A stretch of 64,000 bases of DNA from Olleya sp. YS (lineage in GTDB: Bacteria; Bacteroidota; Bacteroidia; Flavobacteriales; Flavobacteriaceae). Position 1 is the stretch's first letter, and the number at the start of each line of letters is the position of its first letter. Shown piece after piece: positions 56,591 to 59,818 of this stretch. The notes under the pieces are model-generated. The model ran no database searches, had not been told where the DNA came from, and saw only the letters and a list, made by a program, of their open reading frames with translations. Position numbers and translations under genes: made by a program. The stretch spans positions 780,001 to 844,000 of the forward strand of contig NZ_CP121685.1 of assembly GCF_029760915.1 (NCBI RefSeq). The letters are read 5' to 3'.

Positions 56591-57154
56591 TTAACTTCTT
56601 GAAGGGAAAATACCCTGTAGTGCAATAACATAGTTAATACCTACATAAGGTGTTCTTAAATTCATAGGTTGATTTCCTCCCTGATTTCCTGTATTACCAG
56701 AAACAGTGACTGTTCCTGTAGAACCTAAGGTTTCGTTTGCTGCTCCACTAACATAAGGTGTACCAGACGCTGCTGTTGCTAGAACATTTCCAGCTGGCTC
56801 CTCTGTTGTACCGTCATCTTCAGAACATGTCATTGTACTTACTCCTGTAAGTGAAGATCCATCATGAGCGTGTGTTGGCATCTCGTTAATTGTTATAGTA
56901 TGTTGTTCTGCTCCACCTCTTTCTCCCCAAGTGATATTAGACAATCCAGGACCTTGACCTACACTTAAAGGTACTCTACCTCTTAAATCTGGTAAGCCAA
57001 AAGTGGTTCTACCGTCTCCACCATAGGTTGTTCCTATAAGAGAAAATAAAGCTGTGTTTTGACTAATTGGTAATAATTGTCCATGACAAAAAGCCCAACC
57101 GCGTGGAGCAAAGTTTCCTCCAAATAACATAATTTGTGCAATAAATGGTTCCAT
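56591..57154 (-). CDS. Phage tail-collar domain (Mdp-type) protein
   Basis: 187 residues. The tail-collar signature is clear: MEPFIAQIMLFGGNFAPRGW, then LIGTTYGGDGRTTFGLPDLR, GRVPLSVGQGPG and the METAL-type THAH stretch NEMPTHAHDGS. These are microcystin-dependent-protein-like (MdpB) proteins, common outside phages in Bacteroidota. No signal peptide or sorting domain is present, and no other phage gene is nearby. It is divergent from the 131-residue gene; both start with a near-identical leader. Function unknown. Confidence 0.85.
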   Translation of the reverse strand: MEPFIAQIMLFGGNFAPRGWAFCHGQLLPISQNTALFSLIGTTYGGDGRTTFGLPDLRGRVPLSVGQGPGLSNITWGERGGAEQHTITINEMPTHAHDGSSLTGVSTMTCSEDDGTTEEPAGNVLATAASGTPYVSGAANETLGSTGTVTVSGNTGNQGGNQPMNLRTPYVGINYVIALQGIFPSRS

Positions 57155-57336
57155 AATTTTTTTAGTTTTTATTGATTAATAGCGACTCCAAATGTATTTT
57201 CTTTATATCTTACATATAGCAGCACATATACTGTTATTATAAACCAAGTAAAAACCCCTGATTTGTGTTAGAATGTTTTTTATGTGGATAAGTATGACTA
57301 GCTTTAGGTACTATTAATCAATAAAAACAAAAAATT
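57155..57336. promoter_or_regulatory. Divergent promoter region with duplicated 5' leader
   Basis: The leaders of both divergent genes begin CTATTAATCAATAAAAAC (leftward 57182-57165, rightward 57311-57328) and continue with an A-rich stretch ending AATTATG in both. Upstream of each lies a -7-like box: TACATTTG on the - strand (57189-57196) and TAGCTTTA on the + strand (57299-57306). The placement fits transcript 5' ends at the start of the shared sequence. Confidence 0.75.
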
Positions 57337-57732
57337 ATGAGTTCACTAACACCACTTACAAGAACTATTGAAGAAGCAAAAACATGGACAGAAAATTGGC
57401 AAAAAAACAATCCAGACTTGCCAAAAGCTTTTTTAATTCCAGCAGATGACCTTATAGCCTGCTTTAACACTATGGATATTGATGTAACTGTAGATGCAAA
57501 TGGTAAATTACATTTAAAAGTAGACCGATTTGAACCTGGAGTAAGATCTTACATTGGAATAGATGACAATGATGAAGCTCATCTTTTAATAGTAGGTACA
57601 TCAACTTCTGACGGTAAAAATTATGAAGACCATCCAGAAAATGGAGTGTTTGATTTTACTAGACCGTGTCCAAGTAATTGTGACCCTAAAAGTATTATGT
57701 TTCATAAAGAAGTACATAAATTTTCAAAATAA
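57337..57732 (+). CDS. Hypothetical protein, 131 residues
   Basis: No signal peptide or membrane helix. The sequence has an N-terminal helical part (TIEEAKTWTENWQKNNPDLP) and a beta-rich middle with VDVTVDANGKLHLKVDRFEP-like alternation around residues 48-72, then SYIGIDDNDEAHLLIVGTS. Two cysteines in RPCPSNC near the C-terminus could bind metal. I do not recognise it. It leads a rightward group with a seven-TM protein, a histidine kinase and a LuxR-type regulator, and shares its leader sequence with the divergent tail-collar gene. Confidence 0.7.
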   Translation: MSSLTPLTRTIEEAKTWTENWQKNNPDLPKAFLIPADDLIACFNTMDIDVTVDANGKLHLKVDRFEPGVRSYIGIDDNDEAHLLIVGTSTSDGKNYEDHPENGVFDFTRPCPSNCDPKSIMFHKEVHKFSK

Positions 57733-57736
57733 ATGA

Positions 57737-58378
57737 ATGAGTTATTTAGATGACATTTTTCAATACATAGGGTTATTTCTAATACTTTTAAATGCAATAT
57801 TATATACAAAGAGTTACATTACTAATAAAAGACATGTAACTCTTTTGTTTATTACTTTATATTTATGTTTTTCTGCTTTAATAATGATTACTGTAGAAAT
57901 AATAGCAAACTACAGAGGTAATAATCTTTTTTTGTCACATATTTATTTTGTGTCGCAATTTGTATTCCTGTCATTTTTTTATAAAACTCTTTTTAATTAC
58001 AGTCAAGGTAAAATAATTGTTTTAACTCTAATTATTGTTCTTTCAATTTTAACCTTTCAATATATTAGAAAGCCTTATTTAATTAATCAATTTAATTTAT
58101 TTGAAATTTTTATTACATCATTTCCAATAATTATATATTCAATAGTACACATGTATAATTCATTAAATAAAAAAGGTAATTTTATGCTTATTAATTCTGG
58201 AGTATTAATTTACATAACAATTAGTACTCTTATATTTATTTTAGGAAATTATCTTTCTGAGTATAGAAGTGATGCCATAACTAAAATATGGATGATAAAT
58301 AAGTTACTGTACATTGTGTATTTAATATTAATTTTAGCAGAATGGAAAAAAATGAATTTGCTACTCAAGAACAAATAA
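57737..58378 (+). CDS. Seven-helix membrane protein, unknown
   Basis: 213 residues with seven predicted hydrophobic helices: about 8-29, 34-58, 66-88, 95-113, 121-142, 149-173 and 180-204. The C-terminal tail is short and basic. No family recognised. Its last 37 bases overlap the start of the histidine kinase in another frame, so the two proteins are synthesised together. The topology suggests a membrane sensor partner for the kinase, which itself has just one membrane helix. Confidence 0.75.
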   Translation: MSYLDDIFQYIGLFLILLNAILYTKSYITNKRHVTLLFITLYLCFSALIMITVEIIANYRGNNLFLSHIYFVSQFVFLSFFYKTLFNYSQGKIIVLTLIIVLSILTFQYIRKPYLINQFNLFEIFITSFPIIIYSIVHMYNSLNKKGNFMLINSGVLIYITISTLIFILGNYLSEYRSDAITKIWMINKLLYIVYLILILAEWKKMNLLLKNK

Positions 58379-59148
58379 TTGGAGCATTAGTGTATAGTAT
58401 TATTTTTTTAGTACTTGTAACACTTGGGCTAATTTTATTTTTTTACTACTCTAGAAAAAAAATCATAGAAAAAGAGGTAGAAAAAGTTAACATAAAACTA
58501 GACCTTCAAAAAAAAATATTACAGACCACTATAAAGGTTCAAGAAAAAGAACGAAACAGAATTGCGCAAGATTTACATGATGCCATAAGCTCTAAATTAA
58601 ATGTTATAAGTTTAACCACACATGTGTTATTAGATGATGAAACTATTAAGGGAAAGCAGAAAGAATCTTTAAACCACATATTGGATATCACAACAAGAAC
58701 ACTTGAAAGCTCAAGAAAAATAGCACACGAGCTAATGCCTCCTATTCTAGATAAGTTTGGTTTAAAAGTCGCATTAGAAGAACTTTTTGACGAGTTTACG
58801 TCCAATACGTCAATTAAAATAAAATATAATATAGATGAATTAGACGATGTAGAAAAAAGTAACGAGCTACATATTTTTAGGATTGCACAAGAACTTATAA
58901 ATAATTCTCTAACACACGGAAAAGCAAATCTATTAGAAATGAAGTTAGTTAAAGAAAAAGAAGGTTTTAAACTGGTTTATAAAGATAACGGAAAAGGATT
59001 TGACGTTAATAAAACGAGTAAAAAATCTGGAATTGGATTACAAAATATTAAGAGTAGAGTTTCTATTTTAAATGGTCAACTGTCTATTGAAAGTTCAAAA
59101 AATAAAGGAAGTCGCTTCATTATAAATTGTTATAATTATGGATCATGA
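58342..59148 (+). CDS. Histidine kinase, HisKA_3 type, single membrane helix
   Basis: 268 residues. A single helix near the N-terminus (LVYSIIFLVLVTLGLILFFYY) anchors it. Following a coiled coil, HisKA_3 has RIAQDLHDAISSKLNVISLT (His in DLHDA) and the ATPase domain has RIAQELINNSLTHGKA (N box), YKDNGKGFD and GIGLQNIKSRVS. No sensory domain is present, suggesting that the upstream seven-TM protein detects the signal. It overlaps that gene by 37 bases and the following regulator gene by 11 bases. Confidence 0.88.
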   Translation: MEKNEFATQEQIIGALVYSIIFLVLVTLGLILFFYYSRKKIIEKEVEKVNIKLDLQKKILQTTIKVQEKERNRIAQDLHDAISSKLNVISLTTHVLLDDETIKGKQKESLNHILDITTRTLESSRKIAHELMPPILDKFGLKVALEELFDEFTSNTSIKIKYNIDELDDVEKSNELHIFRIAQELINNSLTHGKANLLEMKLVKEKEGFKLVYKDNGKGFDVNKTSKKSGIGLQNIKSRVSILNGQLSIESSKNKGSRFIINCYNYGS

Positions 59149-59818
59149 AATTACACTAGCCTTAGCAGATGATGAGTTATTGTTTAGACAAGGACTAATC
59201 TCTATACTTAGTCAAGAAAAATCTATTACTGTTTTTTTTGATGCAGAAGATGGAAATGATTTGATGCAAAAACTAAGAACCGCACAACAATTACCAGAAA
59301 TTGTTATAACAGATTTGAAGATGCCTGGTCTTAATGGTGTGGAAACTACCAAACTTATAAGGAAAGAATTTCCTGATATTAAGATTATTGCACTAACTAG
59401 CTACTTCAGCAAACCATTTATTGTTAACATGATATCAATTGGAGCAGTCGCCTATTTGGCTAAAAATAGTACTCCAAAGTTAATGCTTACCACTATTAAA
59501 GAAGTTGCTGAAAAAGGATTTTATTATGATGATCAAGTTCTAAAATTTATACATGAAGGATTACTTAATCCAAATGATAAAATGGTAAAGTCAAATTTTG
59601 ATACTACCTATTTTACAAAACGCGAAAAAGAAGTATTACATCTAATTTGTAAACAACTAACTACGTCTGAAATTGCCGAGAAACTATTTATAAGCCCAAG
59701 AACAGTCGAAGGACATCGTAACAATTTATTACTTAAAACTGAATCTAAAAATGTAGCTGGTTTAGTAATTTATGGTCTCAAGAATAAGCTTGTGTCATTA
59801 GATAGTGATACGTTTTAA
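59138..59818 (+). CDS. LuxR/NarL-type response regulator
   Basis: 226 residues. Receiver domain: LALADDELLFRQG, phospho-Asp in IVITDLKMPGLNG, Thr in IALTSYFS and Lys in AYLAKNSTP. The LuxR HTH reads FTKREKEVLHLICKQLTTSEI and FISPRTVEGHRNNLLLKTESK, close to the classical consensus. It is coupled to the kinase gene by an 11-base overlap and ends with a terminator four bases after the stop. Target unknown; the shared leaders upstream are possible targets. Confidence 0.92.
   Translation: MDHEITLALADDELLFRQGLISILSQEKSITVFFDAEDGNDLMQKLRTAQQLPEIVITDLKMPGLNGVETTKLIRKEFPDIKIIALTSYFSKPFIVNMISIGAVAYLAKNSTPKLMLTTIKEVAEKGFYYDDQVLKFIHEGLLNPNDKMVKSNFDTTYFTKREKEVLHLICKQLTTSEIAEKLFISPRTVEGHRNNLLLKTESKNVAGLVIYGLKNKLVSLDSDTF

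Follow-up and report, generated by a model that had tools for sequence, protein, structure and literature searches.

In Olleya sp. YS, two divergent genes carry a wider 5′ tag, which is why the same 18 letters stand at the start of their predicted mRNAs. The reading that we favour, although tentatively, is that this leader represents one instance of an RNA 5′ element belonging to a set of mRNAs and small RNAs (sRNAs) under the control of response regulators, and that the element is probably read by an RNA-binding factor. As shown by the sequences themselves, the same element stands at the predicted 5′ ends of five tandem sRNA-like units, of the mRNAs from three curlin genes, and of a few further messages, and operators of the regulator type precede the divergent gene cassette, two of the three curlin genes, and the units of the sRNA-like array. 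A 5′ tag that is common to the divergent pair, curli-type mRNAs, and sRNA-like genes conserved across the family points, as a prediction from sequence, to shared control at the RNA level.

The two leaders are located in a 182-bp gap (57155–57336 of the window, that is, the whole 64,000-nt stretch of DNA that was analysed), with a tail-collar gene on the minus strand on one side and a four-gene operon on the plus strand on the other. The features are:

56591–57154, minus strand: tail-collar protein gene, 187 aa, Pfam PF07484
57155–57184, minus strand: predicted 5′ leader of the collar mRNA, 30 nt, transcription start site (TSS) inferred from the −7 box
57165–57182, minus strand: shared 18-mer CTATTAATCAATAAAAAC, copy 1
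57189–57196, minus strand: −7 box of the collar promoter, TACATTTG, its distance to the centre of the operator being 56 bp in 12 of 13 loci and 55 bp in the other
57245–57260, no strand assigned: central operator CAAGTAAAAACCCCTG, family consensus CASGTAGAAAYACCTG, a 6-4-6 dyad typical of LuxR/NarL-type regulators
57299–57306, plus strand: −7 box of the sensor-operon promoter, TAGCTTTA, its distance to the centre of the operator being 45–47 bp in 11 of 13 loci
57311–57328, plus strand: shared 18-mer CTATTAATCAATAAAAAC, copy 2
57311–57336, plus strand: predicted 5′ leader of the sensor-operon mRNA, 26 nt, TSS inferred
57337–57732, plus strand: gene for an unknown protein, 131 aa, with a conserved PCPxxCD near the C-terminus
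57737–58378, plus strand: gene for a 213-aa membrane protein, hydrophobic as judged by its sequence and probably multi-spanning
58342–59148, plus strand: histidine kinase gene, HisKA_3 and HATPase_c domains, NarX/LiaS type
59138–59818, plus strand: response regulator gene, LuxR-type DNA-binding domain, NarL/UvrY type

The original prediction had noted identical starts of the two leaders in opposite orientation, and the copies of CTATTAATCAATAAAAAC are indeed exact, at 57165–57182 (minus strand) and 57311–57328 (plus strand), each being followed by an A-rich stretch and AATTATG. The 3,005,012-base genome contains no third exact copy, the next best matches having 2 mismatches, and among the orthologous loci compared, exact repeats of the CTATTAATCAATAAAAAC type occur in this genome only. 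The core of the leader, on the other hand, is also found before other genes. When the −7 box is taken as −12 to −5, the position of this box in the mapped promoters of F. psychrophilum (PMC9723704), the 18-mer starts at +1 of the RNA for the 131-aa protein gene and at +3 for the collar gene. Its assignment to the RNA is thus right as a prediction, with the copies beginning no more than 2 nt from the predicted TSS. The sigma-A pattern of the Flavobacteriaceae (TAnnTTTG, about 12 nt before the start) fits TACATTTG and, more weakly, TAGCTTTA, both starts being predicted. The claim that such sharing is not expected by chance was borne out as well: when 93,528 pairs of 36-nt leaders, taken upstream of genes of this genome, were sampled, only paralogues or repeats shared at least 18 nt. 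Ranked by similarity to the leaders of relatives against a background of 433 generic leaders from this genome, the two leaders occupied ranks 1–2 of 434 in three of four comparisons and rank 14 in the fourth; the same ranking in a second genome (G302) yielded ranks 1–2 of 191. The first 40 nt of either mRNA have a fold energy of 0 kcal/mol, and both leaders contain A at −3, −6, −12, and −13, so that these unstructured leaders fit an A-rich, Kozak-like start region. The leader is unlikely to have been duplicated recently within this locus, since both leaders fit the same consensus in other genera, although the exact identity is confined to this genome.

Divergent collar genes next to the 131-aa protein gene, followed by the membrane protein and kinase genes, were found in 13 loci from several genera, and a search with the collar gene yielded three further divergent collar loci. 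Homologues of the 131-aa protein gene are present in 44 of 397 genomes of the family. The central dyad CASGTAGAAAYACCTG beats all 60 shuffles in each of the 13 loci that combine the collar gene with this gene, compared to three of the 19 loci that have it without a collar gene (Fisher p 3e-6). Sequence comparison thus establishes that the collar gene and the operon for the 131-aa protein, the membrane protein, the kinase, and the regulator form a conserved divergent cassette around one predicted operator with fixed promoter distances. The shared operator is probably bound by the cassette's own regulator. A search with the 23-mer operator sequence detected only the cassette site in the genome of Olleya sp. 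YS at up to 3 mismatches; the collar-type site of one sRNA unit differs from it at 4 positions. The functional link between the collar gene and the sensor operon that had been proposed on the strength of the leader therefore stands on other grounds, namely, the conserved synteny and the shared operator of fixed geometry. That the leader itself provides this link is not supported: it also begins curlin and other mRNAs, and it precedes collar genes that have no adjacent sensor operon.

The 131-aa protein had no match in Pfam, NCBIfam or PHROG, and the 213-aa membrane protein no family match; the structure model of the former was of moderate confidence (pLDDT 76.5), and its best structural match (Z 3.2) was uninformative. 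In the family of the protein encoded at 57337–57732 of the window, the PCP and the C of the PCPxxCD motif near the C-terminus are invariant, and the gene is found together with those for the hydrophobic membrane protein and the kinase even where a genome has no collar gene. A second conserved stretch is located at 57221–57241 of the window, on the collar side of the operator (roughly GCGNAAAATCACTG in relatives), and is possibly a further regulator site. Two tandem collar genes are common in relatives (L015, L022, L025, L029, L034, L192–L201), compared to one here. The intergenic region of the cassette had no match in Rfam. In its kinase, its LuxR-type regulator, and its single operator between divergent promoters, the arrangement resembles an autoregulated two-component cassette with a divergent target. 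However, the target is a tail-collar domain protein, the operon begins with the 131-aa protein gene, and the operator is located at a fixed spacing to both promoters. The literature search yielded nothing that deals with this locus or that associates collar genes with two-component systems, so that a conserved sensor cassette tied to a tail-collar protein lacks a description in the literature searched.

Among the orthologous loci, the leader is kept in other genera (for example, CTATTAATCAACAAAAAAC, ATATTAATCAACTAAAAC, and TCAATTAATCACAATTAAAA) but is degenerate in the nearest congeners: one of these (G004) has the element on the collar side only, and in two others (G006 and G007) it is absent on both sides. 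Across loci, the collar leaders are 26–136 nt long, the start being predicted from the operator-anchored −7 box. For the eight collar loci with TAAYC 15–30 nt before the ATG, the distance from TAAYC to the ATG is 24.0 ± 1.5 nt, and that from the predicted TSS to TAAYC is 21.6 ± 34.6 nt; the discriminating long-leader loci are L010 and L027, and L022, with the motif at 35 nt, lies outside this set. In three collar loci with predicted leaders of 56–136 nt, the motif is found 24–35 nt before the ATG and not at the TSS; anchoring to the start codon and anchoring to the promoter are separated by only these three loci, two of which come from one genus, with predicted TSSs. A looser, TAAYC-type leader is present on most collar genes that are second in their operon, with no −7 box in the 60 nt before the ATG, as well as on many collar genes without an adjacent sensor operon. 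Because TAAYC-type leaders precede other collar genes, the leader is not private to the divergent pair.

The wider 5′ element takes the form (G)CTATTAAY, or (G)CUAUUAAUYAA as RNA, and is also given as (G)CUAUUAAU and CUAUUAAUCAA. In the genome of Olleya sp. YS, the pattern CTATTAATCN{8,24}ATG has 35 matches, compared to nine for the reversed control. Further counts were made in samples composed of 40 spread 20-kb stretches plus targeted ones. Within 10–39 nt before start codons, TATTAATC shows a roughly twelve-fold enrichment in a sample of 884 kb, in which both the curlin genes and the cassette are included. In 899 kb, CTATTAAY is located 5 nt behind a −7 box 17 times, compared to 0–4 times at any other spacing; four of the 17 cases are double-counted overlaps, leaving 13. 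Besides a few genes for secreted or membrane proteins, the clear carriers are the three curlin genes that lie in tandem in a csg-like locus. The curlin-repeat genes (L105:8199-13369; G000:C1:1916-1921 kb) have the leader GCTATTAATCAATAT, and in the second and third curlin gene, the −7 box is preceded by a perfect ACGTAnnnnTACGT palindrome, at a distance of 154 and 174 bp, respectively. Because a looser whole-genome count of TATTAAYCN{12,20}ATG did not reveal a consistent excess, either across 60 genomes or in that of Olleya sp. YS itself, the generality of the element across the family rests on the array loci.

The array was reached via a search for collar-type operators; it lies on the minus strand (L182:1400-2080; G000:C1:1533.6-1534.3 kb), following the gene of a second LuxR-type regulator. 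It consists of five tandem units of about 137 bp. Each unit has an operator and a −7-like box, carries TATTAAY at its predicted 5′ end, and contains the hairpin of an intrinsic terminator; the units share no consistent reading frame. Four of the operators are of the ACGTAGTTCTACGT type and one is of the collar type, CCACGTATAAACACCTG; the −7-like box has the form TATCTTTA or TAnnTTGY, and the starts read (G)CTATTAAT, or GTTATTAAT in one unit. With the second regulator as the query, 80 loci were gathered from Olleya, Bizionia, Lacinutrix, Algibacter, Flavivirga, and others. In each of the 80 genomes examined, units composed of a promoter and CTATTAAY lie just behind the orthologous regulator gene on the same strand, with one to six units per genome; altogether, there are 181 such units, compared to 0 or 1 per control region. 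Since TATTAAY or CTATTAAY was contained in the collecting seed, the conservation of these letters is partly by construction, whereas the preceding G, the spacing to the −7 box, the strand, the position, and the operator distance are independent of the seed. In 73 of 77 cases, the centre of the operator, which is a palindrome ACGTAnnnnTACGT and putative regulator site, lies 31 bp upstream of the −7 box. A terminator filter retained 137 units in 69 genomes, and in 97 of the 113 full-length units among these, the G of the element is at +1 behind the box. The predicted RNAs are mostly 64–78 nt long, and compensatory changes were observed at 12 of the 14 pairs of the terminator helix. GGGA follows the 5′ end in 85 of the 137 filtered units, compared to about 10 in shuffles; it is not present several times per RNA, and in the folds of some units, it occupies a loop position. 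In six array-holding loci searched against Rfam 15, nothing reached the gathering level besides one tRNA, and no match did so in L182 and L244.

Under the favoured reading, the cassette's own regulator would bind the central operator and switch both directions. In the mRNAs, the element, located about 24 nt before the start codon in an unstructured leader, would serve as the landing site of an RNA-binding factor acting in trans, by which translation or stability is tuned. Sharing this 5′ element, the sRNAs would compete for the factor, and the regulators would thereby couple sRNA output to the surface-protein mRNAs. Common control by an RNA-binding protein or an sRNA, as originally suggested, is plausible because sRNA-like genes with the same 5′ end adjoin a response regulator gene in this genome. 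Rather doubtful is a narrower version, a titration driven by response regulators and specific to the Flavobacteriaceae, in which the tandem sRNAs would mimic the leaders of mRNAs for surface structures (tail-collar, curlin, and sensor operon) and soak up a translational regulator that reads (G)CUAUUAAUYAA. Several observations count against the RNA-level reading: the element is lost or weakened on one or both sides in the nearest congeners, the looser whole-genome count lacks a consistent excess, and the GGGA hairpin of many sRNAs is absent from the mRNAs, so that a factor reading the hairpin would need no shared 5′ end.

The main rival is that GCTATTAAY at +1 to +9 belongs to the DNA signal of a single class of regulated promoters, involved in start selection or promoter escape, so that their RNAs would all begin alike without any function at the RNA level. 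Such a role explains the placement at +1 to +9 in the sRNAs, the curlin genes, and this cassette equally well, and the near-invariant spacing to the −7 box (5 nt in this genome; +1 in 97 of the 113 sRNA-like units) as well as the presence of the element at the 5′ ends of coding and non-coding RNAs alike argue for it. What it does not account for are the start-codon-anchored collar leaders, that is, the steady distance between motif and ATG, which is kept even in the three long predicted leaders, and the TAAYC-type leaders of most second-in-operon collar genes, which have no nearby −7 box; we consider it somewhat unlikely. These collar leaders would be accounted for if the element were part of an ordinary translation leader of the Flavobacteriaceae, A-rich, unstructured, free of Shine-Dalgarno motifs, and with TAAYC about 20–24 nt upstream, the identity over 18 nt being an extreme draw. 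Genome-wide, TAAYC peaks 19–24 nt and AAAA 7–18 nt before start codons (p 8e-5 for TAAYC at 20–27), A-rich start regions are established in F. johnsoniae (PMC6847099), and the first 40 nt of both mRNAs are free of predicted structure. The non-coding units, however, are left out of this account, as the sRNA-like genes share the 5′ end without a gene to translate, and in their match to the leaders of relatives, both leaders far surpass the generic ones of this genome. As a full account, a generic leader is rejected by the sRNA-like units and by the ranking against the 433 own leaders, and the probability of this reading is clearly low.

Alternatively, the single-stranded 5′ GCUAUUAAUYA of the sRNAs could be a seed that pairs with its complement AUUAAUAGC near the start codons of other mRNAs, in which case the leaders of the cassette and the curlin genes would share their sequence through promoter ancestry only. 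In multicopy sRNAs, a conserved 5′ end that stays unpaired often serves as the seed, and FopS of Bacteroides is an experimentally shown case (PMC11697453), but the sequences shared here are identical rather than complementary; we regard pairing of this kind as very improbable. The 18-mers might also be inverted repeats around a switchable promoter segment, given that 18-bp inverted repeats flank the promoter region. Inverted repeats around a promoter are a layout known from capsule loci of Bacteroidota. However, exact repeats are present in this genome only, and across the 13 orthologous loci neither the operator nor the two promoters change their orientation; because of this constant orientation, an invertible promoter was rejected, and its probability appears close to negligible.

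Among known systems, the array appears nearest to Gac/Rsm and to FopS/RbpB of Bacteroides, and we do not claim membership in either. In the Gac/Rsm system, a LuxR-type regulator drives the expression of sRNAs with GGA hairpins that titrate RsmA/CsrA. The array is similar in having a LuxR-type regulator, a predicted operator upstream of sRNA-like genes, and a GGGA that is often located in a short predicted hairpin, whereas its units have one GGGA per RNA as a rule, and the shared element is the unpaired 5′ end. FopS of Bacteroides thetaiotaomicron comprises 14 paralogous sRNAs of about 65–70 nt that act with RbpB, fall into intergenic, antisense, and 3′UTR-derived classes, have canonical promoters, and pair with SusC mRNAs (PMC11697453). 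Both systems are formed by multicopy sRNAs of about this length in Bacteroidota, here predicted RNAs, with a conserved 5′ region and divergent 3′ parts (PMC11697453). In contrast to FopS, the units described here are in tandem behind a LuxR-type regulator gene and have a dedicated operator, and their 5′ end is identical to mRNA leaders rather than shown to be complementary to a target. The Kozak-like starts of Flavobacterium resemble the two leaders in the A positions, the lack of a Shine-Dalgarno motif, and the lack of structure, but adenines are what is reported there, and the sections consulted do not mention an upstream TATTAAY element (PMC6847099). Rfp18 of F. psychrophilum is described as having at least three stem-loops (PMC9723704).

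Post-transcriptional control in the Flavobacteriaceae is poorly known: the 2021 transcriptome of F. psychrophilum named 85 new RNAs, and one sRNA was followed up by deletion (PMC9723704). A regulator-linked family of tandem sRNA-like genes that is present in 80 of 80 related genomes examined and absent from Rfam 15 offers a concrete, testable circuit, and its 5′ end, being equal to the leaders of curli-type and tail-collar mRNAs, can be used as a tag for finding other members. Isolated −7 boxes followed by GCTATTAATC starts, with terminator-like hairpins behind them, are found at L141:3739 (minus strand) and L137:19593 (plus strand) and are possibly further sRNA genes; in the former, the −7 box is preceded at 51 bp by a perfect ACGTACCCCTACGT palindrome. 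The 14-bp palindrome ACGTAGTTCTACGT is also present at L177:1501, L179:1501, and L221:1001, as part of a longer, A/T-flanked palindrome near other genes, which lack the leader.
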